A stretch of 64,000 bases of DNA from Bacilli bacterium. Its GTDB lineage: Bacteria > Bacillota_I > Bacilli_A > ML615J-28 > CAG-698. Below, in pieces: positions 7,078 to 55,900 of the stretch. The stretch lies in assembly GCA_918272565.1 (NCBI GenBank), contig CAKJYW010000013.1, positions 1 to 64,000 on the forward strand. The letters are read 5' to 3'. A program made the position numbers and the translations under genes. Position 1 is the first letter of the stretch. Every line of letters starts with the position of its first letter. Below the pieces are notes generated by a model. It was not told the origin of the DNA. It saw only the letters and a list, made by a program, of their open reading frames with translations, and did not search any database.

Positions 7078-8452
7078 TTTCATAAGAAAGATACGCATAG
7101 CCTTCTCTCAAAAGAAAAGAAAAGTCTGTTGCGTAGCTGGATGTGGAGCTGGTAAAACTGTTCTAGCTAGTTTTATGTGTGCTAGTCACAATGATAAAAA
7201 TGAAAATAATTATTGTTGGTTTCTAGTTCATAGACAAGAGCTGATAGAACAAACACTAAATACATTCAAAATGTTTGGATTAAATACTGATAGAATATTT
7301 GTTGGTATGTATCAAACAGTTAGTCGTAGAAGTTCTGAAACATTTAGAAAGCCTACGCTTATTATATGTGATGAAGCTCATCATATATTAGCCAAGAGCT
7401 GGAAAAAAATAATCGATGCATTCGAAGATGTTCCTATAGTAGGACTAACTGCTACTCCTTGTAGATCCGACAACAAACCATTAGGCAATGCCTTTGATGA
7501 ATTGTGTACAACAGTATCAGTAAAATGGTTAATTGAACACAAATACTTAAGTAACTTTGAATACTATGCACCTAAAATAGAATTCGAAGAAAGAAGAAAA
7601 GGCACTGACTTTGACCAAATGTTCATTACATCACAGTTTATGGAAAGAAAAATCTATGGTGATGTATTGAAATATATTAATCCAAATAAAAAAACTATAA
7701 TCTATTGTCCATCAATACCTTTCTCCAAACTAATGGCTGATAAAATTAACGAACATTTCGCTAATAATATTGCTGTCCATTTCGATGGAGACACACCTAA
7801 AAAAGAAAGAGCTAACATAATCGAAAACTTCCGTAATGGCAACATTAAAATCTTATGCAATGTTGACTTAATAGGTGAAGGATTCGATGTTCCAGACTGC
7901 GAGTATTGCATATTGCTAAGGCCTACATTATCTCTTTCATTATTCATACAACAATCAATGAGATGTATGAGATATAAAGAAGGCAAGACAGCAATGATAA
8001 TCGATATGGTAGGTAACTGCTATAGGCACGGACTACCAGATGATGATAGAGACTGGAGTCTTGAATTCAAACCTAGACTAATCAGAGAAAAGAATGCTGA
8101 TTCTCAAGATGTAATCGTTAGACAATGTAAGAAATGTTTCCGTGTCTATAAAGGCAATGGAAGAATATGTCCTTACTGCTTTAACGACAATGGCAAAACC
8201 AAAAAGCAAATTGAAGAAGACGAAAAAGCAGAGCTCGAAAGAATTAATGCTATTGACAAAAGAAATAAAAACATTGAAGTTGCAACAGCTAAAGACTTCG
8301 GCGAATTAGTCAAAATAGGAATCGCAAGAAAATATAAAGATCCAGCTTTCTGGGCAACTAAAGTCCTACAATCAAGAAAAGCTAAGGAACTAGCTAAGGA
8401 AAAAAGACGTGCAGAACGAGAAGCAAAAAAACAATCAAAACAAAAAATCTGA
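7049..8452 (+). CDS. SF2 DEAH-box helicase with C-terminal zinc ribbon
   Basis: 467 residues. Walker A GCGAGKT at residues 31-37, motif Ia region FLVHRQELIEQ, DEAH near 108-111, motif III GLTATPCR, and a second RecA domain with motif IV-VI elements (IYCPSIPFSKLMA, DLIGEGFDVP, QQSMRCMRY). Residues about 360-380 hold a CxxC...CPYC zinc ribbon, and the tail is Lys-rich. This is the phage replication or recombination helicase type related to RadD/UvsW. It overlaps genes at both ends and has no clear ribosome site, so translation is probably coupled. Confidence 0.9.
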   Translation: MVSLRSYQSDFIRKIRIAFSQKKRKVCCVAGCGAGKTVLASFMCASHNDKNENNYCWFLVHRQELIEQTLNTFKMFGLNTDRIFVGMYQTVSRRSSETFRKPTLIICDEAHHILAKSWKKIIDAFEDVPIVGLTATPCRSDNKPLGNAFDELCTTVSVKWLIEHKYLSNFEYYAPKIEFEERRKGTDFDQMFITSQFMERKIYGDVLKYINPNKKTIIYCPSIPFSKLMADKINEHFANNIAVHFDGDTPKKERANIIENFRNGNIKILCNVDLIGEGFDVPDCEYCILLRPTLSLSLFIQQSMRCMRYKEGKTAMIIDMVGNCYRHGLPDDDRDWSLEFKPRLIREKNADSQDVIVRQCKKCFRVYKGNGRICPYCFNDNGKTKKQIEEDEKAELERINAIDKRNKNIEVATAKDFGELVKIGIARKYKDPAFWATKVLQSRKAKELAKEKRRAEREAKKQSKQKI

Positions 8453-19061: not shown

Positions 19062-19352
19062 ATGGTTAACGAACAAGAAGAAAAAAGAACAAAAGAACAT
19101 GACGTAATCACAGAACCTCCTGCCATCTGCCGTGATAAAAAAATTCTTGAATCTGGATTAACATTCAAGAAAGCTTATATGAAGATGGTAGAGGGAAAGA
19201 AAATTGCAAGACCAAGTTTCAACGGATGGTGGTTCATGGATAAATACAGTAGAATCATAATCCACGACCAATACGATAATGAAATCCAGAATGGAGATAT
19301 CACTATCACAGTCACGAATACTCTCGCCAATGACTGGGAGGTAATCGAATGA
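19062..19352 (+). CDS. Second DUF2829 / Tad2-like protein
   Basis: 96 residues; AAGGA lies eleven bases before the ATG at 19062, and the longer frame from 19014 has no site. After a 30-residue charged lead, residues about 33-96 follow the Tad2 pattern: LTFKKAYMKMVEGKKIARPS, FNGWWFMDKYSRIII, ITITVTNTLANDWEVI. It is more divergent than the protein at 15528 and belongs to the subgroup with NxLANDWE. It overlaps the GroEL start by four bases (ATGA), so it is expressed with the chaperonin. A different ligand from its paralogue is possible. Confidence 0.7.
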   Translation: MVNEQEEKRTKEHDVITEPPAICRDKKILESGLTFKKAYMKMVEGKKIARPSFNGWWFMDKYSRIIIHDQYDNEIQNGDITITVTNTLANDWEVIE

Positions 19353-20899
19353 AAACAGTAGACATTGAAGTAATCGGTAAGACTTTAAATAAAGCTTACG
19401 ACTTAGTAACACCTACAATGGGCCCACGAGGAAGACTAGCTATCATCGCAGATCCATTCTCCAGACCATATCTAACTGATGATGGTGTAACTGTAGCTAA
19501 GGAATTATTAAACTTAGACAATCAGTTCGAGAAGATGGTTGCAATTTCCATCTGCGAAGCAGCAAGCAACACTGAAAAAGCAGCCTTCGATGGGACAACT
19601 CTTACTGTATTATTAGTTAAAGAGTTATATGAATGCGGGATGAAGCTTGTTAATCAAGGAGTCCATCAGCAAATTGCAGCAGACATTATTAAATCTAAAT
19701 GTGAAAACGCAGTAAAGCTCTTAAAGAATTCTTGTATCAAAATCACTGATGCAAACAAAGAACATCTCATTAAGAGCGTCAGCTACATCACAACTAAAAT
19801 TCCGTACATCGGCGAGTTAGTTTACGAAGCTGCAAAGAAAGCTGGCGATGCAATGAATATTGCCATCGAGCATGACAGAACCATCCCAGAATCCGTAGTT
19901 GAACACGTTGATGGTATGGTTGTTAACTCTGGATACTTCTCAAAAGAGTTAGGTAAGCTAGCAAATAATGAGAAAGGTGTATGGATTAGGGACAATGCTA
20001 AGTTATTCTTATTAGCTGAAGGCATTCTTACTAAGAACGGCCTCAACAATTTATTTAAATCAATCACTAATCCAAAGCAACCATTAGTATTCGTCTTCAG
20101 TTCAAATCATAATCCAGAAACAATCCAACAATTGATTGAGAATTTATCTGCTAACAAGTTAGACTTCATGATTATGTTCATCAATGAAGGTAATGCAGAC
20201 GAAATCTTCTTGGACATCGCTGCGAAAACAAACGGTATGGTTCAATCAGCTACATTTAACACGACTGACTACACTTACGACCACGCTGGTACGGCTGATC
20301 ACATCGAAATCGAAATCGATAAGACTACAATCATCGCTAAATGTGATACAGATGCAATCAAAAATAGAATGAGTGCATATAAGAGAGAGCTTGACGAGAA
20401 CAAGTTCACCACCAACCTTGTAAGAGCTGATGTAATCAACCGCCGCATGGCTAACTTAGGAGCTGGAGTCGTAACAATTAAGCTTGCTTGTCAAACTGTA
20501 ACTGAATATAGAACCATTCGTTTCAAACTTGATGATGCCATCGGAGCAGTCAGATGCACAATGCGTGATGGAGTATTGCCTGGATGTGGCAAAGCAATGT
20601 ATTACTTAACCAAACCAGACACAGTTAACGAGGTAACAGAAATCACGGATGCCTTGAAAGCTCCGATGAAAAAGATTCTAGCTAATGCTGGATATGAAAT
20701 GCCTTCAGATGAATACTTATATAAGTCATACGAAAACGGAATCGATGCAACGAACAACGCCAAAGTAAACTTATACGATGAAGGTATCCTTGATAGCTAC
20801 GCTTCTATTGAAACAGCATTAAAGAACGCCGCATCAATAGCCTGCGATTATTTAAGAGCTTACATCTTAATTAACGAGAACGTAAAAGAGGGAGATTAA
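19349..20899 (+). CDS. groEL: Phage-encoded GroEL-like chaperonin 60
   Basis: 516 residues against about 548 for bacterial GroEL. Hallmarks: TPTMGPRGR (residues 21-29), LTDDGVTVAKEL, the nucleotide loop DGTTLTVLL with Asp at 81, and the late LDDAIGAVRCTMRDGVLPGCG, which keeps the Asp of the ATP-hydrolysis site. The apical domain is divergent and the Gly-Gly-Met tail is absent. It probably assembles with the phage GroES-like protein just upstream to fold phage proteins; whether it forms one or two rings cannot be seen. Its stop overlaps the converging helicase gene within a terminator. Confidence 0.93.
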   Translation: MKTVDIEVIGKTLNKAYDLVTPTMGPRGRLAIIADPFSRPYLTDDGVTVAKELLNLDNQFEKMVAISICEAASNTEKAAFDGTTLTVLLVKELYECGMKLVNQGVHQQIAADIIKSKCENAVKLLKNSCIKITDANKEHLIKSVSYITTKIPYIGELVYEAAKKAGDAMNIAIEHDRTIPESVVEHVDGMVVNSGYFSKELGKLANNEKGVWIRDNAKLFLLAEGILTKNGLNNLFKSITNPKQPLVFVFSSNHNPETIQQLIENLSANKLDFMIMFINEGNADEIFLDIAAKTNGMVQSATFNTTDYTYDHAGTADHIEIEIDKTTIIAKCDTDAIKNRMSAYKRELDENKFTTNLVRADVINRRMANLGAGVVTIKLACQTVTEYRTIRFKLDDAIGAVRCTMRDGVLPGCGKAMYYLTKPDTVNEVTEITDALKAPMKKILANAGYEMPSDEYLYKSYENGIDATNNAKVNLYDEGILDSYASIETALKNAASIACDYLRAYILINENVKEGD

Positions 20900-37544: not shown

Positions 37545-38003
37545 TTACCATTCAGCATAAAATGCTTCACGCATAGCACGTTTATTCCTACGTGCGTTAC
37601 GTTTATCTACTTTATATTTACGCACGTTATAGTGAGATTCTTCAAAAGAATCATTCCACTTATCTAATGCATATAAGTTAGCAGCAACTTGTGTTCCACC
37701 AGCTTTATCAACTAAACGTTTAACGCCAACAAGTGGTTTAACTTCTTCCTTATCAATCATATGATATCTCTTATGATGATAATGATTCTTATGAGTAACA
37801 ACTAAAACAACATCGCCACTTACTTTCTCAATAGAAGGATAAGTAATTGGCTCTTCTTTAAGTTTTCTCTCATAACGAATTTGAGCTAACTTAATAGCAT
37901 CAGCTTTTGCTTTTTGTTTCTTGCAAACAGAAGCTCTAACTGTTTTGATAATGAATGCTACAACAACAAACATAATCACTAAAGCAATAATGACGAATAA
38001 CAT
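37545..38003 (-). CDS. Membrane-anchored basic protein behind the hammerhead ribozyme
   Basis: 152 residues. Residues 2-21 are a transmembrane helix (LFVIIALVIMFVVVAFII); the rest is Lys/His/Arg-rich with HHKRYH and a basic tail. AAGGAG is present but held in a hairpin (38007-38021). The ribozyme at 38056-38110 would cleave the transcript 99 bases before the start codon. Function is unknown. Confidence 0.6.
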   Translation of the reverse strand: MLFVIIALVIMFVVVAFIIKTVRASVCKKQKAKADAIKLAQIRYERKLKEEPITYPSIEKVSGDVVLVVTHKNHYHHKRYHMIDKEEVKPLVGVKRLVDKAGGTQVAANLYALDKWNDSFEESHYNVRKYKVDKRNARRNKRAMREAFYAEW

Positions 38004-38055: not shown

Positions 38056-38110
38056 TCTCTGTTTCGCCATCTGTAGGCTCATCAGTCAGATTACGAATCT
38101 GAGACAGAGA
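38056..38110 (-). ncRNA. Type III hammerhead self-cleaving ribozyme
   Basis: Read on the - strand: stem III 5' strand TCTCTG (38110-38105), cleavage triplet GTC (38105-38103), stem I TCAGATT-CGT-AATCTGA (38102-38086), core CTGATGA (38085-38079), stem II GCC-TACAGAT-GGC (38078-38066), core GAAA (38065-38062), stem III 3' strand CAGAGA (38061-38056). All conserved core bases are present and every stem is perfectly paired. Stem III is the open stem, so it is type III. Predicted cleavage is between 38103 and 38102. It lies between two genes of the same strand, so it would act in cis on the mRNA. Confidence 0.93.
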
Positions 38111-38123
38111 GGACAATTAGTCC

Positions 38124-38522
38124 TCAAGCTTTAATATATTTCAGTGAACAATCGCAATGCTCACCTTGGAATTGATATAAAGGATATCTTTCTTTACTAA
38201 CTAAGAAATAAATAAAGTCACCAACAATAAAGAAAGCATCTTTAGAACCATCCCAGAAAGTAATGATTCCATAAGCATCGCTATCCTTTTTATAATCAAA
38301 GGACTTAACTTGTTTTAAAGCAAGTCGCTTGTCGTGAAGAAGTTTTTCTTCTGGAGTGATAACAACTTTCTTATAAACATTAGAAACATAAGCATCATCG
38401 TTATGTCTGAAACACCAAGACATATCGTGTTCTGCTTCTTCTCTTGTGTCATACATATGTGTAGTTTCACTAGCACCAAAATGACAGAAGTAAGATTGAT
38501 AATCAAAACAATACTTAATCAT
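38124..38522 (-). CDS. Unknown protein, first gene of the - strand cluster
   Basis: 132 residues from the ATG at 38522; a longer frame runs to 38576 but neither start has a good Shine-Dalgarno. Rich in Asp, Tyr, Phe and Lys, with THMYDTREEAEHDMSWCFRH early and a GEHCDCSLKYIKA end. No family recognised. A GAGGAC/GTCCTC hairpin overlaps its stop and touches the ribozyme. Confidence 0.5.
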   Translation of the reverse strand: MIKYCFDYQSYFCHFGASETTHMYDTREEAEHDMSWCFRHNDDAYVSNVYKKVVITPEEKLLHDKRLALKQVKSFDYKKDSDAYGIITFWDGSKDAFFIVGDFIYFLVSKERYPLYQFQGEHCDCSLKYIKA

Positions 38523-38690
38523 AAACTCGCTTGACTCTCGGCTCAAGCTCACCGCTTTCATATATGTCAACATCATAACGATGTAATGACCAAAACTCGA
38601 AATGTATTACAGATTTGAAAAAAGTATATACAACATAAAAACACATTTTACTAAATGCACTACATTTTCCGTACCTGCGATAATATATAT

Positions 38691-40943: not shown

Positions 40944-40994
40944 GGTAGCAGACGAGTTATCGTGTTGTATAAAGAAATCAGGAGGGACTGACGT

Positions 40995-43900
40995 ATGTAT
41001 AAAGACGACGACGTGTTGAAAGTTTTAAACTCGAACACAGAAAATAACAACTATAACGAAGATAATAATGATACTGACGAGCTTGATGTATTGAAAAGTA
41101 ATACTCCAGAAGAAGTAGTTACTCCAGTAGAAAGTTTCAGACCACAGCTTACAGAAAAAGAATACGCTGCAAGAGAAAGTGCTAGTGTTGATTTTGATTC
41201 TGGAATTAATCACGTAGATAATAGCGAAGTCGGTTTTTTAAAAAATAATTATGTTCAGTTAGATACTGGCGAAGTTAATACAACGAAGTCACTAGCTACT
41301 GATTTAGTGTCTGATGAAAAGAGTATCAGCACTGGAGAGTTATATAAAGATACTCTCGGAAGAACCGCATATGAAGATTTGAAAGTTGCTTGCGGTTTAA
41401 ATAAAAATGATTCATTCACTGATTTTTATAATAACAATGGCTACGTTCCTAAAGGTTGGGAAATGGAAGCTAAGATGTGTTTAATTGAAGAAAAGAGAAT
41501 GAAATTTTATAGTAAGTATCAGAACGGTGAAATGTCTGAAACTGATTTTTTGTATCAAGCTTACGGAAAAGATTTGATGAAGGAAGCTGGATATGATTTA
41601 GAATCTAAGTTGTTCTGGTATAACAGAATTAAAAATGGTGATCGCACATCGCCACTAGATAGCGATACGTTCTTGGCAGATTTAATTGCTAACTCACGTT
41701 CGTTATTTCAGAACGAAACTTGGTATAGAGATTCCACATCGAATAAGATGAGTCAGACACTTGCTGGTTTAGTTACTGGTAATAGATTGTCTGATGATAA
41801 GTTCTATGAGATTTTTAAGAATCAAGTAGATGCGTTGAAGCCATATTTTGACGAAGACGTAAATAAAATTATTACATATTATAAAGCAGGAAGTTTAGGT
41901 TCTGCGTTTTCACCGTTTATAGATACAGACGGTGATGGTAAATACGATTATTATTTCCACACTGATGGAAGATTATATGCTGTAAAAGATTCTTCTGGAG
42001 CTGGTGAAAGTAAATGTACCATCACATATAACGAGGATGGTTCTGTTCACGCTGTCCAGATTAACGATGGATTAGATGGAGCAGTTGATTCGTTCCTCGA
42101 AGGCTTCAGAGATTTCTGGGTTGGTTTACTAGATATCGGTTCGATGGCCGTATCGTTATTCGTTGGTATCGGTGACGCAGCTAACGGAGGTAAATACTGG
42201 GTAGATTCTCAACAACGCTGGGAAGCATTTAAGAAATCTACTTGGGCATTAGGCGATGAAGACTATGTTACGTTCGATTCAGTAAGTAATTGGAACGGCG
42301 AAGACTGGGCGAACGGTATCTGTAAAGGTGTTGGCCAGGTCGCTGGTATGATCGTGTTAACTGTTTTAACTGCTGGCATCGGTACAGCTGCTCAAGGCGG
42401 TAAGGCTGCTATCAACACTGGAACTGAAATTGGTAGTGAAGCTGCTAAAGAAGTAATGAAAGATGGTGCTAAGGGAGTTACTAAAGAAATGGTTAGTAAT
42501 TCTATTAAGTCTGTTTACGGAAAAGTTGCTGAAAGATTAGGAAGTAACGCCGCACCGAAAGTTGTTGAAAGAACAGCACAACAAGCTATTGCAGAATTAG
42601 GTAAACAGCTTGGAACTCAGCTTCCGAAAGAAGCATTCGAAGAAGTTGCTAAAGGTTTAGTAGCCCAAGAATTAAGAGCATTAGGAACTACGACAGCTAA
42701 GCTTGCTGTTAAGAATGCGGGTACAGCTCTTGCTAGAGGTGCATCTGCAGTTCTTCAAGCTGGAACAAAAGGCCGTAGTGGTTTTGTTATTTCTACGAAA
42801 GGTGTTATGGGTTCTGTCTGGGGACAATCGATACAGGTCGCTGCTACTAACGCTGTTAAAGATTTCGTATCAGTTGCTGGTCAGCTTGAAGCTAGAAACA
42901 ACGGATTAAAGTTCCTTGAGAAAGTAACAGATGGGCAAGTAAAAGCATTAAGTACTGGAGATATTTTAGGAAGAGCGTTTGCTACAGCAGGTGCTGATTT
43001 AGTTATATCATCACTATTTAGAGCACAAGGCGATATCGGAACTACTACTAGAATAAATGCGATGTTTGGTAGTAAGAGTAAGTTATTAACAGAAAACGCT
43101 AAGAAGTTATTAGCTGATGGAAGTATTTCTCAGTCAGTTAGAAATGCTACATTGAATATGACTAAGAATATGAAAGCTTGTATGGCTGTCGATAATATTT
43201 TTGATATTCTCGAAAACATCACAACAGCTGGTGCACAGGCTGCGTTCTCGAATCCATACGCTGAATTAGGTAGTAAAGAATCTTGGCAAACATTCTGGCA
43301 ATCAGCATATAATCCACAGTCGATAATTATGAATGCATACATCGGAGCTAAGAACGTTATATCATACGGTAATTCTCAGAACTTAGTAGATTCTAGATTA
43401 TCCACGTTTATTAGAGAAGCGAATATTAACGCTAGAGCTGTAGGTGGTGCTGTAAGAAATTATATTAATGAAGTCGAAAGTTCTACTCTCGATCCTATCG
43501 AAAAGAATAAACTCATTAAAGTATTAGAGAATTTAGACTCACACGTACAGAATAAATTAAATAATATTGAAAAAGTATCTAGCAAAGATAAGATTAGTGC
43601 TTCCGCTAGAATGTTTAATAATATTATGGAAACAGCTATGGAGTTAGATGATGTATTCAGCATCGATAATAAGAAAGCTGTAACTGCGTTTAATTTAAAT
43701 AATGATGAAGTAACTGAGATTAGAGAAGCTATTAAATTATTAAACAGCACTAAAGAAGCTGGCGAAAAAGATTATGGCATGGTTAGTGCTATGTTATTTA
43801 ATAGAGCATCGAAAGCTGAAGCTGAAAATATTAAGGCTGTTTATGAAGACATCCTTGATTTAGCTACTAAGAAAGCTACACACACTAATAAAGTTTTGAA

Positions 43901-46900
43901 AATGATTGCTGATTTCTCTGGTAAATTACCGTTTGCGAATCACGTTAAGTCTAAACACGCAATGGCTACGTTTAAAGATTTCTTAAACACAGTGGCTGAT
44001 AAAGCTAACTATGATTTAAGCGGCATTAAAGATATCGATATTAGAAATTTAATTGTTAGTAACAGAATTAAAACATTGCATCGTGATGACGATGGAACTT
44101 CGTTTAATAAATTTAAACAAGCTATTGATGAAGGATTAATTAAAACATATGTATTAAGCGATGCTTCTGCGTTAGAAGGACATAAATTTAAAGTTGAAGA
44201 AGATGGAAACATCATAGTATTAGACAGTAATAATAAAGAAAGAACAGATGTTAACTTCGATGACAATCCGTTCTTCCAGCTCTTACAAGATAAAGCTCAT
44301 AATAAAGAAGCTATTGAACAGTTGATTAAGATGGGAATCATCACATCTCCGAACAACGATAAAGAACCAGAATCGTTATATTCTATTATGGCATCTGGAA
44401 CTCCTTGGTTCGGTTTCACTGTTGATCAGTCGAAGAGAAACGAAATATTAAAGAAGTCAGATAACAATGAAACAAATCCATTGAGAGATATTATTGTTGC
44501 ATTAGATACGATTGCTGATTTATGTAACCCAGATTTATCAGCTGATTCAGATGGATATGCTGGAATTGACTGGTCGATTCCATTATTTACTCGTGTCTCA
44601 TACACTAGAAAAAATAGTAGTGGTGGAGAAAGCGATGTAAGTTTATATATTGTTCCTAACCAGAGCAAGGCTCATAACATTGATATCGTAAATAGATTAC
44701 AAACTGTTCAAGCAATGATTTACGATTATTATAAAATTTTAACTCTTACTAAGGTAGGACTTAAAACTCCAGAGCAAAATGAAGAATTGCAAAAAGCAAT
44801 TGCTACTTTCGCATTCCTCCTCGATGAAAACATCGTCATGAATGATTATAAGGATTACCAAGAAATTCTTAGTGATCCTGCTAAGCGTAGCGAATTCTTG
44901 GAAAATAGATTGAAGCTCGTTGATAAAGCAATTTTGTTTAAAGCTAACTTCGATGAAGACGAAACTGATGAAGGCTTTGGCCGTAATCAATTAGTTAAGT
45001 TATATAGAGATGGAGTTTTAAATGATAACATCTTAACTGAATTTGCAGAAGAATCTGAAAAGAGCAGCAAAGTCGGCGAAGTTGCTAGAAAATTATTACA
45101 ATATAAAGACCTCGTTAATTTAACTAGAGATGCAATGAATATCGCTTTAAAAGCTAGTAACGAAGGTAAACTTACTAATGTAGATATTAATGTAATGAAA
45201 GATTACGTTGGCAAGATGAAAGATCCTGCTAATGCTAAGTTGAAAGAATACTTAGAAAAAGATAATCACTTAAGTGCACAACTGGAAAAAATAATCGAAG
45301 ATCCAACGAAGTACTTCCCTTTTATCAACGGCTTAGTTGGAAATGGTCGTCATCTAAGCCAGGAAGAATGTTCGGCCATTTTAGAAAAAAGAAGAATTGA
45401 TGATAGTGATTACATCGAATACTTATCAGAATTAATTGGCAATAGATATAATGACTTTGTTGCTAATACAAACGATTATGTTGAACGTATAAAGAAAACA
45501 TTCACTAAAGTTTTCTATGGCAAAGATTATAACTATACAGATGATAATAATTTCTTCAAGACTTTATCTAAGGAACAAGTAATAGAATTTATTACTGATC
45601 CTTTAACTGTCCTCTCAAATATGAGAGCAAGACAAGTACATAGATTATTCTCAAAGAATCAAGATTCTGATTCTAATTACTCAACAGATATCACTCCCCT
45701 TGCTAAAGAGTTATTAAGAAAATCTGGATTATTAACAGAAGATGGAAAGTTAGATACTAATAAGATATTTATTGAAACATATAATATCGATAGCGAAACT
45801 CCTTTAACTGCTGATGAAATCAAAAATGAAATTCTTAAAGGTGAAACTGACCAAGCGAGATTATTTAGAAACTTAATTCTCATCGCTAATAAAGATTACA
45901 TCGGTGATTTCAACGAAAGAATCGTTGGTGACGATGGAGTAGAAAAAGATTTCATCAGAAACGAAGGCGAAAACATTTATGTTGGAAAGAATGATGAACT
46001 ATTAGGCGATTACTTATTTAACAATACAGATGTTAAGCAAATGTTAATGGTTAGCAAACAAGATGAAATCATTGACAGAATTAAAAATGATATCGACTTA
46101 TATGACCAATATGTTGGCGTTGGCACAGACCTTATGGCTTCAAAGAATATTATTGAAGTTAATCTTTTAGAATTACTTCCAAAGAATTTAAAGTCTGCTG
46201 TCGGAAAATTCTTAGAATCTATCGAAGCTAAAAGCGATAGAGGTGCTAAAGCTAGAATGGAAAATAATGAAATCCAACAAGATATGGAAAAATTATTTAC
46301 TGGTTCTGAAGCATCTAACACAACAAGCCAATACGTAGCTTATAAGAAATTAGTATTAAGTAAAATTATTAATGGAAATTTCTTATACTCATATGACATC
46401 AACAATACAAAGTCTATTGAGAAGTTCAGAACTTTAATGTTCTCTCTTGGATATGGTAAAGATGTTTCTAAGATTATCTCTAACGCTATTCAAGTAGATG
46501 GTGTATCTGTTAAGAACAAACCAATGCACGTAATTAAAACAGATTTAGAAGCTCGTAAGGTATTTGAAACTCTTATGAAAATGTCTCCTGTTACTTTCAT
46601 CAGCACATTGAAAGAAGGCAAAGACTTTAAATATGTTTTAAATAATTTATTCTCAAGCAATAGATATGTAGATGACAATACTACATTCGATGTAAGTAAA
46701 CTCAAATTAAACAATGGCGTTACATTATTAGGTAACTACGATGAGTGGACACAAACAGAAGGAATATCTGAAACATTATTAGACCGTGCAATTAAAGCTG
46801 CACTTCAAGGTGGTAACTTCGCAGACTTCTTTACAATCTTTAATAAGTCAACAGATTTCGAAGGTCAAGTAAATAAAACTTCATACGAAACTTACAAGGC

Positions 46901-49900
46901 TATTAAGATTATTGACCGTGTATTTGAATATTTGTTTGATCCTAAAACAGAATACAGACAATCAGTCTTAAGAGTTCCTTGCACAAAAGATAATTCTAAA
47001 TACAAAGATATCCTTGAAATGTATTCAAAGGAAAATTCAATTTGGAATGTAAAATATGATGAAGATAATAAATACTTTGAGTTCAGAAGAAAAGATGCAA
47101 AGGATGTTAATAAAGATGCTTTCATTCAAACTCATATCATCGAAAACAATAATGAATTTAACTTCAAAGAGTTAGTCCCATTGTGGGACTCAAAGACTTC
47201 AACTAAGTCTGTTGACTTTGAAATGGACAAAGATATATCTTACGAAACATTATTCAGTATTATCTCTGAAATGGAATTCGATGATCTAACTAAGATTGAA
47301 GATTTCGTTAAGTATGCTGAAAAGCCTATTAAGTTAATGAGCTTAGATAAGTCTGAAAAATCTGAATATGATAACTTGATGTCTAAGCTTAATGGCGAGA
47401 AGACATTATCAGAAATTGAAAACATTCTCGCATCTAATAAAAAATTAGTAGAAGATAATTACTATGCCAACTTATTAGACTTCTATTTCAAAAATGTCAG
47501 AGCACAATCTAATGTTTTAGAGAATGCTTTAAGCACAGAAGAAACAAAACCATTGTTATCATTATGTGACACAGACATTCTTAATTCTATTGGCGACTTA
47601 TTAAACGGTAAGTATAAAGATATATTCTCAGAACAAAGCTTTAATGATGATGAAATGTTAGCGTTAGCAAACGATGTCAGCGAAAGCGTTCATAAATCTG
47701 TTAGCTTTGATTCTATTAAAGCATTGTTAACTATTCTTAAAGATGCTGAAGAAAATCAATTAGTAGCATTAAGCACTGACACAGGATTGGCTAAGAACAA
47801 TCCTACTTTAACTGCGTTCGGTTTCTTAGAAATTGATGACGAAGGTAAGCTCAGTGTTTCTATGGAAGAATATATCAAAGCAGCTAAACAAGATAGAGAG
47901 GTATTCTTATCTAATTTAGATTTAATGTTAAAGACTGCTGGCTTAACAGATGAAGAAAAAGCTTCTGTTAAAAATTTAATCAGTCAATTAAAAGCTAAAG
48001 ATGCTTTAATAACAGAACTTAATGCTGATAAAGAATTAACTATTGAACATTCTAATTTAAAAACTATCTTAAATTTTGAAACTACTTCACCTAACGAACC
48101 TTCAGTTAAGGTAAATCCAAATGAATATTTCTTATCAAGCGGTGATAACTTCAATAAGAAATTAGCTGCTTCATTAGTTGCTAATAGAAAGTTCCTAAAG
48201 AAAGGCCAAGATAAATATATTGCACTATCATCTATAGGTGAAACTAAAGATACAATAGGCAATTTATTATCCGACTTTATGCGTGATGCATTAGGAAGAA
48301 CTTTAGATTTAACAACAGATAAATTAGGTTCTGCTCTTATTTATAATATGCAATCAGATGAAGGCGTTGCTGAATTCTTTATGTCTTCATATACTTGGGC
48401 ACACTATATCAAAGAAGCAATTATGATGGATGATGAAGGAAACTTTGTTAATAAATTCAAAGGTATGTCCGAAAAAGAAGTTAATAAAATGCTTTATGAT
48501 TTAGCAATGAAAGCTAACTTGTATTCTACTGGAACAACATTCGCAGCTGAATATGCTGGTGCTTTAATGCTTGAATATGATCCAGAAACTAAACAATACA
48601 ATATCAAACCTATCGTTACTTCATCTTCTAATCCAGATGATGATATTCTTCGTGAATTAGTTATTGGCAAACATAGCTTAGGCGAAGAAGATGGAAAAGT
48701 AAAAATGATGGTTAAAGTAAAACAAAATACTTTCGTAGAAAATATTAGTGGATATAATAGTGACTTCGAAGTATTTGATTTAACAAATGAAGATGTCAAG
48801 AGATCTGTTTATGCAGCTGCTTACTTTAATGCTAAGCGTAATAACAGAGCTTGGTATATCAATCCAGATAAATACGATAGCTATAAAGATGTAATTAAAA
48901 GTTACTATATTGATACATATAAATTAAAAGCTTATGACTTAAGAACTCATTTCTATAATGCTTGCAAAGCTTATGGCTTAACAGATGATGTTATTAAAAC
49001 AATATTACAAAATGCAGACAACATCGCTGTAACTCAAAATACTTCTTGGTCTGAACAAGCACTTGAAACTTTAAAGAGAACAGCTGGTATCACAAATGAT
49101 AAGTTTGTAGAGAACAGACAGTTCAAAGCTCTTCACGATGCTTTATTATATGCTATTAACAAAGACGCATTAAAACCAGAAACACTAAATGGCTTTGATA
49201 ACTTCATTAATAAATATGACGCTGCATTAAAAGTTAATGAAGTTGAAAATGCTTTAGTTGCATTAGATAAGATTACAAGTTTAAACGTAGAAGACAATGA
49301 GCTTGGTTATAAATATTTCGCAACATTGTCTGAGGCAGAACAAAAAGATGTCATTATGCACTTGATGTTAGACTCAAGCAACACTGATGGTCTTACTTTA
49401 ACTATGCTTGCTAATGCTAGAAATGGTAAGAACTTATACGATGTCTATAAATATTTCGTAGATAGATTCGATGTTAAAGCTATAAAAGAAGTTACTAAAG
49501 TTGACTTAACTAAATCACAAGTCGAAGGCTACAGAAAAACATTTGGAAATAGAATAACTGATGACCAAATAAAAGATTTATTCGGCAAAGAAACAAAAGC
49601 AATATCTAAAGAACAACAATTGAACTATGCTAAACCATTAATTGATTTAGTTGATAATCTTTCTAAATATATTGATGACAAAGAATCATTCAATAAATTA
49701 TTATCATCAATTACATTTGATGGTGTTGATTTGTCTAGCGATAAAGCTTTGTTTGATAACGTTGATTTGTTCGGAGACAATGCATTGCCATTTGCTAGAG
49801 ATAAATCATTCTTAGCTCAAGCAATGAAAGCTTTCCAATTAATGGAAGATTCTAAATCTTTAAGAGCTGATTCAAAAGAATTAGAAAATAGAATCAAAGA

Positions 49901-52900
49901 TGTAATCACTGGTAACGGATACAATGGTTATTCAAGACAACAATATCTTTCTTCATTAAGAAGTAAACGTAAACGTAATGAAGTTAGAAATGTATTCTTT
50001 AATTTACTTAACGCACACGGTGTTGAAGTAAGCAATATCAATATCGAATTAAGAGATGGAACAGATACATTAAAGAATGATGATGTATCGAAAGCGTTAG
50101 CAGCTGCTGTCAATGATATTTCTTTAGCTGCTAAAGCATACGGCGAAGATCTTGAAAAACAAAACAAGTATGATGAAACAATTAAAAACTATTCATTAGC
50201 TGATAAGATAGAAGTATTCTTAGCAAGTGGTCAAGATAACATGACTAAGTATTTAAAAAATACTTTTGCTAATTCAGAATACAAACATTATTCACCAGGA
50301 ATGTTATCCACACTTGATGGCAAATATGGTGAGAAATTACTTAATGCTTTAAAAGCAAACTTTGATTTCAAGAAAGCAGAAAGAGATTCTATTATCAATA
50401 GATTTGTAACAACAGTTATGAATCCTCTTGATAAATATATGTCTAAACAACAAGAGAAATATTTAAAGAATATCAATCCTGCATTCTTATTATCAAACTT
50501 AGTAAGAGTATCTGGCTATACGACAGAAGGAAAAGAATTGCTTGCTAGAAAACTTGAACATATGAATAAGTATGGCAACATTATCGAAATCACTTCTCAA
50601 ACAAATAAAGAACTTCACGACTATATCGTTAACGATTTATTACACGATGAGTTATATAACGTGAGAGCTTTGTGGTCTATGGCCCACGAACATAAAGAAT
50701 TCGTTGATGGAATTCCATATGGTTGTATTAAAGTTAATTCAAAAATTTTGAACGAATCTTTCGGATTGAATCCAGAAACAAATCAACCATATAAGAATGG
50801 CGACACTTTATATACATTGATGTGGAGACAACCTGGTCAGCAAAGAACAGTTATTCATAACGTAAGAGTTCTTGTTGATGATAACTATACATTCGCTTTA
50901 TCCAGAACAACTGCTAGAGATTACTTCAATGGTGATATGGATGGTGACTCTTACTTCAAAGCTATGCCAGACAATGCTATGCAAGCTTTTGGCAAATCAA
51001 CTTTCGATACATTAAATTATGGTGGAAGTTTATTTGATACATTGTTTGATGGAGTAAAGATTCCTATGTCTAGTGCTAAGGAATTCTCCACATACGAAAG
51101 TGAATTAACTAAATACTTCAGAGATAATCAAGAAGCACAAAATTTAATTTATGGAATTTATAATAATACAAATTCTGTAGATGATTTTAATGCTCACTTC
51201 AGAAGTTGGTTAAATGACAATACTAAATACGATGATAAAACAAAAGATATGTTAGTCAGTGCTTTTGGTTTCAAAGAAAGAACCACAGCAATGATTAACA
51301 AAAATAGAGTAATCACTTCTAACAACTATATCTTAGATAAGCTTGGAAAATTATATAAATCAAATGATAAGAACAGACCTAATATCGTTGATGAAATTAT
51401 GAAAGGCAACGAAGCATTCCTTCGTGCTGCATTCTTATTATCTGATGATGACGCTACTTGGCTTGGTCAATCATCTAAAGGACAATTGAGAAACTTCGAA
51501 GTCAAAGAAGAACAACTCAATAAAGTTTCTAATGCTTTATATGAAACAACAATTGGTATGTCAAAAGATTCTAACGCTAGACTTATTAACATTTTCGAAT
51601 TGTTAAAAAACGACAAGAAAGCTATGACACAAATTAAAAACAACGTTTGTAAATACATAGACTTAGGAATTAACCAAGGTTTCATTAGCAAAACAAATGG
51701 TGAAAGAATTAAGCAAGATGTTTTAGACACAGAGAACTTTGATCAAGACTCTGCTTATTGTGTTGCACAATTGTTACAAGTCCATAAGATTAATTCTAAA
51801 CCATACGATGATATCATTACTAAATCTATAACTGCTCCAGAAGCACAATCACAAAGAATTAAAAATAATCAAAAGATTTCTGGCATTATTAACATCATGC
51901 AAAAAATGGGCGGCTATGATGGATTAAACGGATTAGCTGCAGTAATGAAAGAAAATCCATATGGCCCTGAATCTTTAACTATTGCTTCTAGATTAGCTGA
52001 ACAATTGCTAGACGAAAAATTATTAAGAAATCCTTTGTTTATGGCAACTAAAGATGCTACTGGTGCTGCAAAGTTATTAAGAGACTTCGCTACTAAATGT
52101 GATGTAGATGTTATTTCAAAAAATAATTTGAACATTGTTTCTCACAAGAAAACAACTGGCATTAATAAAAACGTTATCGGCGTTAGTGGAAAAGTTATAG
52201 TTGCTATCCAAACTGATGGCGAATACACAGATAGTGTAGGCGTTTATGATAGAAGCAAACACGGTGGAGCTAACTTAAGAGTTAATAGATGTGCATCATA
52301 TGAACTCGGTGACTTAACACCTAAACAAAAAGAAGAATTAGTTTCTACTTTGAAATCTCTTAAAGGAACAATCAAAGCAGATGAGTTTAAACATATCATC
52401 AATGATAGTTCATTTAGAATTAACGGTAACCAAAATGTATTGGCATTCGTTAATAGATTAGGCGAACAAGTCTCATTAGCTTCATTAAAGCCAGAAGATA
52501 TTAACAGAGGCTGTCAATTAGTATTTAATGAAAACTCTTCGTTGATTGACCATGTTAAAAATAATCTTGTTAAGTTCGGTGCTATTACAACCAAAGACTT
52601 TAAAGGAACTGGCTATGCTACAGACATAGAATTCGGTGACCAAATCAAAAAAGAAGACATACCACAATTCTTATTTGACCAAAAGATTGCTAGTATGGAG
52701 AAACTCGCTCCTTTAACTGGCTTCAAAAATTTAGGTAAAACAATTATCGGTACAGATAAGAACGGTGGCAAACACGAATTTGCTTTATGCGAATTAGATA
52801 ATATAGCTTTATTAAATGTATTAGATATGGAAGATATGTCTTTCAGCGACAGAAAGTTAGATACTGTATCATTGCTTTCTGGTTCTCAAGGCATTGACGC

Positions 52901-55900
52901 TTCATTTAATATGGGCAACTTATTCATTACAGTAACAGAAGATGGCAAAGTTGTATATGATCCAAGTGGTTATAATAACTTAATGTCAACAATCAGCAAT
53001 TATACAAAGCCAGTATTGCAAGATGTTAATGGCGTTAACTTAGTAAGATACAATCGTATTGCTATTCTTTTAGACCAAATCGAAGATAACAATAGACTAG
53101 CTAAAGTTATTTCTAATATTGCAAAAGCAATTGGCTCTGATGCTAACAACATTAAAGATGTAATGACTGCATTAGAAACAGTTGGCGATTTAGGTGGCTA
53201 CACTGGTGAACAAATCGAATCAGCTGTTTATGCAACGATGACTCACGATGAAAAAGTTAAGTTCAGAAATATGCTCAAAGCAGATAAAGATAATACATTT
53301 GCTAGAGTATTCTTCAGCAAAGAAGTTCAAGATACTTTAGATTCAAATATCCAAACAGCTGCTGAGTTAGCTGATGATTATGTTGCACAAAAGAAAGAAG
53401 ACATTGCACATACTAATCCTAGAATTGCAAATGTTTCTAACTATTCTGATGGTGCTAACTATGTAAGAGAAATGGAAGGAAGTGCAGAAGACTTAAATAC
53501 TTCATTCATTTCTAGAAGAGCTTTATTGAATTTATTATTAACAGAAACAAATAAAGCTGATGGAAAGCCTTTCGGATTAAACAGCACATTATTAAACGAT
53601 ATGTTAAGAAACGGATATATCGAACCAGAAGATATCTGGTCTGGTAACATAGCAGATGGTTATAGACCTATCTTAAAATATCAAGGACTTGAGTTAGATC
53701 CTAATGATTATCCAGAAAGAACACAAAGTAAAAAAGCTGGTATGTTCTTTAATATGGATATGGGCAAACGTAATAGAGAAAACGAAAACCTCATTGGTTT
53801 TATCGGTGACTCATTATTGCCAAATAATAATCATAAATACAGTGAAGCAATGATAGATGAGATGAACAAAGTAAATAGTTCTGAAACATCAAGTCAATAC
53901 TATTCATATACTCCAGCTACAAGAATTCTTCCATATTTAACAAAAGGAACTGATGAAGATATCTTTGATGCTTTAACTGGATACAAGAATGAATTCTTTG
54001 TAAACAGAATGAATAAATCATTAGAAATATCTGACAGTGACATTAAGCTAGGAACTTATTATTCATCAATTGATGATGCTAGAAGAATGTCAACTTCCGA
54101 AAAGGACTATTACTCAAATGTAAAACAATCTTCTGAATATCTTGAACACTTAGAAGATAGAGATTCAGCAGTGCTTTACAAGAATCTTATTGTTAAAAAG
54201 AAAATTAGTCTTAATGAAGAATTAACTAAATTAAATTTATTAGATAGATTACACTTGCTAGAAGACAGACAAAACTTATTAGAGCAAGATGAATCTACTA
54301 AAGCATTCAAAGAATTAATTGCTGACAAGAGCCAATTCGGAACTGAAATCCAAAACTTCAAAACAATTGAACAAGGCTCATATGAAGATGCTTGCTGGGA
54401 TAATTTATCAGCTGCTAGCTTATCTAAATGTGTAGAATTAACTTCATCTAAAAATGGTTATGAATTCTATAACAGTGCTATGCGTTCTTGGGGTTTCAAA
54501 TCTGATGACAATAAAGACATTGCTTTAGGTTCTAGAGTATTAAGAATGAATGCTATAGCTGATGAAGAAACTAAAAACTTATTAGGCAATGAATATATTC
54601 GCTTAGTCAACGTATCTAAATACGATAACGATTTAGCATTACAACTTGAACAATATTTACAAGTTGAAAAGTTAATTGAACTCTATGATTCATTTGTAAC
54701 AAACAAAGCTGCGTTCGAAAAAGCTATGCCTAAGTCTGGCCCAGAAAGCTATGCAGAACGTTTCAAAAGATTAAACGAAGTATTAAATGAACAAGGTGGA
54801 TTAGATTCATTACGTGCATATACAGATACTTTGTATAAAGAAAACATAGCATTAAGAAGACTTATCGATGATGCTACAGCTATTAATAAGAGAATTATTG
54901 AAGTAGCAAAACAAGAAAGTCCATATGAATATGTTTCTTGGTTTGTAAACTTAGAAGGTAGAGAAAGCAATAATAAACTATTTGGCTGGGATACAGTTAA
55001 TGCATTTGATTTATCTCACCAAAAATTTGAAGATGTATTGCTTGGTTCTATGCAACGTTCTAATAGAAGAAAACTTTCATCTATATTTAGTAGTAGCGAT
55101 GATGGTTACTTAGCTTCTGTTACAATAGCTGCAACAAACTTAGCAAAGAAAAAAGCTGTTAAGTCATTAGCTAAATATATGAAAGACAATGGATATATGA
55201 GTAACTTAGACTTGTATTCCATCAGTATGGAAAAGATAAACAAAGACTTACAAAAAGATTTCTTAGATGCATTCAAATCAGATTTAACTTCTGGAAAGAC
55301 AACAAAAGAAGCTTATGCTTATGACGTATATACTTATAATCAATTAAAGTATATTGCTATTGAAAACGGTGTATCTCCAGAAGAATTCAATGGATATGAA
55401 TCATTCTTGAATCTATATGATAAGCTTTCATCTATTGCAGAAAGTCAAAGACAAGCTTTGCATTTCACTTCGTACCAAGATTTAGTTGAAGCAAGAAATG
55501 CAACTCAAGGTTATGGAACTGATGTAGCAGATAAAGAGAAGCTAGATGCAGCTGTAAAAATTTACAACGCTTCACAAAACGTCTTATCTACTATGGTTGC
55601 TATGATGGTAGAACACGGTAAATATAAATCAGCAGATTCATATCTAGCTGCTATATACGACATAGCTAAAGCTAGATGTCAAAATCTAGGAGACTATGTT
55701 ATCGTAGATAAATACGGAGCTAAATTAGAAGATACTGATAAATATGTTCCATCGTTCTTAAATGGCTTCGATATGGATGACGCTATTAGAGAAATGAAAT
55801 ATGGTAAAGGCGGTAGCGAAGAATCTAAAAAAGCATCTATTGCTCAAATGATTATTTGTGGTGATGCATATGTTATGAAGGAATCTTTAGCTGACCAATT

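Follow-up and report, generated by a model that had tools for sequence, protein, structure and literature searches.

A type III hammerhead ribozyme between two small genes of a tailed phage and its recurrent upstream hairpin

Introduction

Polycistronic phage mRNAs are cut between genes by RNase III and RNase E, which leave structured ends, and from what is known of bacterial mRNA decay such structured ends are expected to be protective. Hammerhead ribozymes fold and cleave rapidly in the course of transcription, and fast cleavage at low Mg2+ requires a tertiary contact between loop I and loop II.

The closest described systems are the phage-derived hammerheads of Perreault et al. (2011; PMC3088659). 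In the searched passages of that paper, cleavage of these RNAs was measured in vitro and, for one array, also in E. coli; hammerheads in prophages adjoin genes of varying identity, the haloviral HHphage hammerhead sits 13 nt ahead of a helicase start codon, and processing of long phage transcripts is proposed for such hammerheads.

Here we describe a type III hammerhead motif in a window of DNA, i.e. the whole stretch of 64,000 nucleotides that was analysed. This copy is ordinary in its place and new as a member of the phage hammerheads, and a recurrent companion hairpin deserves attention. Combining its anatomy and setting with a survey of phage hammerheads, we suggest that it is an intercistronic mRNA-processing element in a tailed-phage operon, the cut of which leaves structured ends on both mRNAs, a reading to which we assign a probability of about 0.72.

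Results

The window is taken from a contig of 77,758 bp, of which it makes up bases 1-64,000; the contig was binned with a 1.69-Mb bacterial genome. The 77.8-kb contig is apparently a complete tailed-phage genome. Terminase, portal, helicase and primase genes were recognised in it using PHROGs, and a search of the contig for terminal direct repeats found none. No DNA similarity to annotated phages was found. Terminases of several other phage groups resemble that of the window phage only at about 25-29% identity. The two nearest phages in IMG/VR, of 76-77 kb, have terminases that are 71-72% identical to that of the window phage and have structural and replication genes in common with it. For most genes at ~20.9-39 kb of the window these two phages have no counterpart. 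This is also true of the two genes on either side of the ribozyme, which have no relative in IMG/VR and no PHROG or Pfam match. The ribozyme is intergenic, on the sense strand, and lies near the beginning of a series of small genes that point leftward. It follows the stop codon of the 150-aa gene by 13 nt and precedes the ATG of the 152-aa gene by 52 nt, with the ribosome site AAGGAG downstream. Strand and spacing suggest that the two genes are co-transcribed.

Two further genes of the window phage were observed. One ORF of 5693 aa at 40995-58076(+), which lies with the terminase on one side and the leftward early-like block on the other, has a DxDGD-like motif that is suggestive of an RNA polymerase. 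A crAss-like assignment, prompted by this ORF and its motif, is unconfirmed: the two C-terminal pieces of the ORF that were searched have no Pfam match, and terminase identity to several other phage groups is only ~25-29%. Positions 19349-20899(+) encode a phage chaperonin of the Cpn60/GroEL type (Pfam, 2.9e-34), with 55% identity in two related phages.

The hammerhead motif in the window contains the core, the cleavage triplet and all three stems (Table 1). Read 5' to 3' on the minus strand, it consists of the first stem III strand, the dinucleotide TC, the stem I hairpin, CTGATGA, the stem II hairpin, GAAA and the second stem III strand. The invariant core, i.e. C3 U4 G5 A6 N7 G8 A9, G12 A13 A14, A15.1-U16.1 and H17, is complete; CTGATGA, GAAA and TC are correctly placed, and the cleavage triplet is GUC. 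The three helices around the core comprise 7, 3 and 6 (or 4) bp, all of them Watson-Crick, and stem III is open-ended. The predicted cut lies 3' of C38103, between C38103 and T38102, and our reading of the sequence agrees with the original prediction on this point. By eye, UUCGUA of loop I and UACAGA of loop II could pair in antiparallel orientation at 5 of 6 positions; a contact between the two loops in this copy is only a guess. Stem II has just 3 bp, which we count against the processing-element reading.

Table 1. Positions of the ribozyme, its flanking hairpins and genes in the window, and of hammerheads in Pelagibacter phages
Feature	Position	Strand	Basis or remark
Whole type III hammerhead ribozyme	38056..38110	-	RF00008 44.0 bits, E 2.5e-6; model R1 56.6 bits, E 6.5e-13
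Stem III 5' strand TCTCTG	38110-38105	-	Sequence; inner four TCTG 38108-38105; outer two also in upstream hairpin
U16.1 (38104), C17 (38103), first stem I base (38102)	38102..38104	-	Hammerhead consensus homology
Stem I hairpin TCAGATT-CGT-AATCTGA	38102-38096 / 38092-38086	-	Sequence and fold
Core CTGATGA	38085-38079	-	Sequence
Stem II GCC-TACAGAT-GGC	38078-38076 / 38068-38066	-	Sequence
Core GAAA	38065-38062	-	Sequence
Stem III 3' strand CAGAGA	38061-38056	-	Sequence
Upstream hairpin GAGGAC-TAATT-GTCCTC	38125-38109	-	Sequence; flush against 4-bp stem III core
Downstream hairpin GAAATGG-N12-CCATTTC	38057-38032	-	Fold; shares outer two stem III bases
Hairpin CGTCT-TAAGG-AGACG enclosing ribosome site AAGGAG (38015-38010)	38021-38007	-	Sequence
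Upstream gene, 150-aa orphan ORF	38124..38576	-	Stop codon overlaps 5' strand of upstream hairpin
Downstream gene, 152-aa orphan ORF	37545..38003	-	ORF call; hydrophobic N-terminal segment
Unannotated type III hammerheads of HTVC031P, HTVC142P and HTVC168P	L407 290-342, 1327-1378; L408 1181-1233; L409 1124-1177; L410 1219-1272		

The Rfam model RF00008 matches the motif with 44.0 bits and E = 2.5e-6 (cmscan, 64 kb against 4227 families) and, in a local search of 401 bp around it, with E = 1.6e-8. The curated gathering cutoff of this model is 48.5 bits, which is why a default cmscan of the window at gathering does not report the hammerhead. The match agrees with the original prediction that a search with RF00008 would hit at this position. 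The gathering cutoff is too strict for phage type III hammerheads, because 14 other phage loci that carry them (including L036, L066, L092, L122 and L135) have no RF00008 match at gathering; in a further test, 4 of 18 phage loci matched.

Independent evidence comes from R1, a covariance model built from an alignment of 55 other phage hammerheads with the window copy left out. In 231 kb, i.e. the window phage contig and its two nearest phages, R1 found the window copy out-of-sample with 56.6 bits (E = 6.5e-13), and a chance match was rejected on this basis. There was no second significant R1 match in these sequences. Searches for further hammerheads in the contig found none, and there was no hammerhead match in the two nearest phages (72% terminase identity); the latter result counts against the processing-element reading. 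In the phage family behind R1, 96.4% of cells are paired vs 63.7% in shuffles, and double-sided changes number 307 vs 82; because the members were pre-filtered for pairing before covariation was counted, covariation backs the family without proving it. The window has 11 occurrences of the bare core pattern CTGANGA...GAAA vs 6.8 expected, so that it is the stems that carry the evidence.

The motif might instead be a non-cleaving look-alike, decayed or arisen by chance, which would be in keeping with a score below the Rfam gathering threshold, a short stem II and a single isolated copy. Given the R1 match, the intact core nucleotides and the failure of the gathering score to detect the copies in 14 other phage loci, we regard this explanation as hardly credible. 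We conclude that the motif is a real type III hammerhead, complete, intergenic and on the strand of its neighbours, as had been proposed, and that, judging from its sequence, it is very probably active in self-cleavage.

Both additional hairpins that had been pointed out in the leader, GAGGAC/GTCCTC and the one around the ribosome site, are present, and the fold contains a further hairpin downstream of the ribozyme (Table 1). The 40 nt upstream of the window copy fold with z = -3.1, and 2.5% of shuffles of this sequence produce a flush hairpin with 6 bp or more. The upstream hairpin was rejected as an intrinsic terminator: it is followed by UCUGUC of the stem III strand and by no U tract, and it is absent from the terminator-like sites that were predicted. 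In a 6-bp stem III the two outermost base pairs use bases that also belong to the flanking hairpins on both sides, as both hairpins directly abut a stem III of 4 bp. A 4-bp stem III fits between them without clash and is the commonest length in phage hammerheads among the matches listed. We estimate that two extra stem III pairs would arise by accident in about 1 in 7 cases (three eighths squared).

In computed folds, the upstream hairpin, the ribozyme with a 4-bp stem III and the second hairpin together form the minimum-energy structure only at intermediate transcript length. In longer transcripts and in the full leader a competing CUGUC/GGCAG pairing wins, and the calculated probability of the inner stem III pairs drops from 0.20 in a short transcript to 0.02 in the full leader, on secondary-structure energies that leave tertiary contacts out. 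On such energies alone, the ribozyme fold is predicted not to be dominant, and this counts against the processing-element reading. Because the competing pairing wins on paper in longer transcripts, we assume that cleavage is fast and co-transcriptional.

These overlapping pairings could also be the parts of a conditional switch, in which the stem III strand pairs either in the ribozyme or in the flanking hairpins and cleavage is set by timing, a ligand or a protein. The outer stem III pairs and CUGUC/GGCAG do compete, with folds within a few kcal/mol of each other, and in the Pelagibacter-phage subfamily the entire stem III strand could pair upstream: in several members (L036, L066, L092, L122, L137-L139, L147 and relatives) TGTTTG, the stem III 5' strand, can pair with CAAACA just upstream. 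This pairing would exclude the ribozyme fold, and it is possible that it constitutes a switch or, alternatively, a hairpin that takes up the strand at the 3' end once cleavage has occurred. At the window locus, however, a 4-bp stem III is compatible with both flanking hairpins, a ligand-binding domain is absent, as is comparative support, and in hammerheads with a hairpin flush at 4 bp the length of stem III is mostly just 4 bp (26 of 42 among the matches listed). Given, in addition, the speed at which hammerheads fold and cut during transcription, a switch appears very improbable.

Type III hammerheads with the layout of the window copy are abundant in the phages of IMG/VR, with at least 120 matches in each of two pattern scans. 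One pattern, CTGTC..CTGANGAG..CGAAACAG with unconstrained flanks, gave at least 120 matches; a further pattern, TGTCTCA..TGACTGATGAGC..GCGAAACA, is close to the window copy and gave 49 loci among the matches listed, which include relatives of Pelagibacter phages. Among the matches listed, 105 loci yielded 127 hammerheads, the window copy included, that satisfied a parser demanding all stems. A start codon with a ribosome site lies at most 30 nt downstream in 58% of 121 non-identical copies among the matches listed, vs 2% in antisense and 7% at random positions (controls for the first set, matches listed), and the median distance of these copies to the upstream stop codon is 34 nt. An intergenic site ahead of a start codon is thus the usual place, and the location in the window is therefore not special. 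The earlier view had treated a site among ordinary genes as unusual, in contrast to one next to terminase or lysin genes; it is not supported by these counts, nor by the searched passages of Perreault et al. (PMC3088659).

No constant neighbour gene emerged when genes next to the matches listed, 67 of them downstream and 80 upstream, were scanned against PHROGs: most flanking genes are without a PHROG match, and the few matches are scattered over functions. No hammerhead was found in 27 other genomes of the host family and no other hammerhead match in 395 genomes of the host class, and we count the latter against the processing-element reading. Searches of IMG/VR, the nearest phages and host-class genomes found no homologue of the exact window locus, which likewise counts against the processing-element reading. 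Such a patchy distribution, with no copy in the two nearest phages or in the rest of the host class, and the lack of constant identity of the flanking genes could be explained if the hammerhead were an active, non-adaptive passenger that spreads between phages and is tolerated where an intergenic cut is harmless. Yet the exact spacing to the hairpin and to the start codon across unrelated phages points to selection on the layout, and we consider a passenger improbable.

The upstream hairpin has counterparts at other phage hammerheads. A hairpin was scored as flush if it had at least 6 bp and ended 0-1 nt ahead of a 4-bp stem III, with expectations taken from dinucleotide shuffles. By this measure a flush upstream hairpin accompanies 51 of 89 representatives of the first phage set vs 4.5 expected. 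Redundancy among the representatives was reduced on the basis of shared 8-mers rather than a tree, and the shuffles account for composition but not for phylogeny. Another, independent scan, in which the stem III letters differed, gave 51 of 75 vs 3.2 expected (both sets among the matches listed), and contigs of bacterial genomes gave 30 of 82 vs 3.0 expected. The count drops steeply as the test position is shifted upstream from stem III (first phage set, matches listed), and the 40 nt up to the cleavage site have a mean z of -2.6, with z < -1.5 in 69% of the 89 representatives among the matches listed. Of 42 hammerheads with a hairpin flush at 4 bp among the matches listed, 26 have a stem III of exactly 4 bp. 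A flush downstream hairpin is not a feature of the class (4/89 vs 2.4 expected, matches listed). We conclude that the upstream hairpin is a positioned, recurrent companion of phage hammerheads, the window copy included; of the 'coordinated control element' seen in the original prediction, it is this part that gains support. No description of the flush hairpin was found in the openly available papers searched, and the searched passages of Perreault et al. (2011; PMC3088659) make no mention of it.

Other hammerheads were met in the survey. The cultured Pelagibacter phage HTVC031P has three unannotated type III copies (290-342, 1327-1378 and 40980-41032) in or beside a run of small genes ahead of the RNA polymerase gene. 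In one viral contig (L144) a type II hammerhead (RF02276, 41 bits) at 8344-8407 follows a same-strand type III copy at a distance of ~0.8 kb. In L136, L140, L149, L150, L165 and L179 the hammerhead is closely preceded by a recurrent arrangement, AGAAGGCGGAC-hairpin-GTAGTAGGTCTGG, which looks like another conserved structured RNA; five of the six loci were scanned and matched no Rfam family at gathering.

The type III hammerheads of species-representative bacterial genomes (L298-L406) are heavily enriched in Patescibacteria/CPR bins, with about 40 of 80 listed titles naming a CPR lineage. A boxA-like antitermination motif (GATCTTTGA / GTTCTTTGA) follows the hammerhead in 39 of 82 bacterial-genome representatives vs 2.2 expected, mostly 0-5 nt past stem III, and in 1 of 89 members of the phage set among the matches listed. 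The neighbours of the bacterial-genome hammerheads include integrase and CI-like repressor genes and are mostly without a known family. A literature search found no paper on the association between these hammerheads and the boxA-like motif.

Discussion

Combining the sequence, structure and gene order of the window locus with the recurrence in other phages of hairpin, ribozyme, ribosome site and start codon, we favor the processing-element reading, for which we infer cleavage, co-transcription, protection of the ends and an effect on expression in the following steps: (i) as the polymerase runs out of the 150-aa gene, folding would begin with the upstream hairpin and continue with the ribozyme; (ii) the ribozyme would then cut after C38103; (iii) the upstream mRNA would end in the hairpin followed by the six nucleotides UCUGUC with a 2',3'-cyclic phosphate, so that a terminator-like 3' end would arise with no termination having taken place and would slow 3'-5' exonucleases; (iv) the downstream mRNA would begin with a 5'-OH and with stem I from its first nucleotide, followed by stem II, the ribosome site and the gene. 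Because type III hammerheads are cut near their 5' end, nearly all of the ribozyme would remain on the downstream RNA. Stem I and stem II at the 5'-OH end would slow 5'-end-dependent decay, and a protected 5'-OH end on the downstream mRNA is plausible on this model. Neighbouring genes could in this way obtain separate abundances and lifetimes while transcription of the operon goes on.

Alternatively, an active hammerhead might mainly lower operon expression past the 150-aa gene if the 5'-OH RNA decays or is poorly used, with the ribosome-site hairpin adding to the damping. The ribosome site does lie inside a 5-bp hairpin, and the cut would part the downstream gene from upstream ribosome traffic. 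On the other hand, phage copies sit just ahead of well-formed ribosome sites (matches listed), and in view of bacterial mRNA decay in general, structure at the 5' end created by the cut would be expected to shield the RNA and not to expose it. We therefore consider a primarily lowering effect unlikely.

The processing-element reading of the window copy can be extended to phage type III hammerheads as a class. They may be compound 'cut and cap' elements, with the flush hairpin co-selected with the ribozyme and with one such element in the window, a proposal that we make tentatively and with slightly less than even confidence. If correct, one cut would yield a terminator-like 3' hairpin upstream and a hairpinned 5'-OH end downstream, phages would be able to split operons without promoters, terminators or host RNases, and the window would place an element of this kind in a phage group where none had been described. 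The survey indicates that the phage elements are abundant, lie mostly below the Rfam curated threshold in the loci tested and have a precisely placed upstream hairpin. Ribozyme-made mRNA ends provide a concrete, testable model, and HTVC031P with its three copies provides a cultured system for it.

In comparison with known systems, the window copy resembles RF00008 (clan CL00010) in having all core nucleotides, an open stem III, closed stems I and II and a GUC triplet, and it differs in its 3-nt stem I loop, its 3-bp stem II and its score of 44.0 vs 48.5 bits. With the hammerheads in the searched passages of Perreault et al. (2011; PMC3088659) it shares the intergenic, sense-strand position, the proposed transcript processing and the inconstant neighbours; the window phage contig differs from what these passages describe in its single copy. 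Similarly, the Pelagibacter phages HTVC031P, HTVC142P and HTVC168P have hammerheads between small genes of early operons, with a ribosome site and an ATG shortly downstream, the HTVC031P copy at 290-342 has an upstream hairpin, and the TGTCTCA...TGACTGATGAGC subfamily of Pelagibacter phages has its outer stem I sequence in common with the window copy. Unlike the window phage, these three phages belong to an unrelated group (Autographiviridae), and two of the three genomes have several copies, all unannotated. Finally, the proposed function parallels processing by RNase III and RNase E in that a polycistronic phage mRNA would be cut between genes to give structured ends, whereas here the RNA itself is predicted to make the cut, leaving a 2',3'-cyclic phosphate and a 5'-OH.
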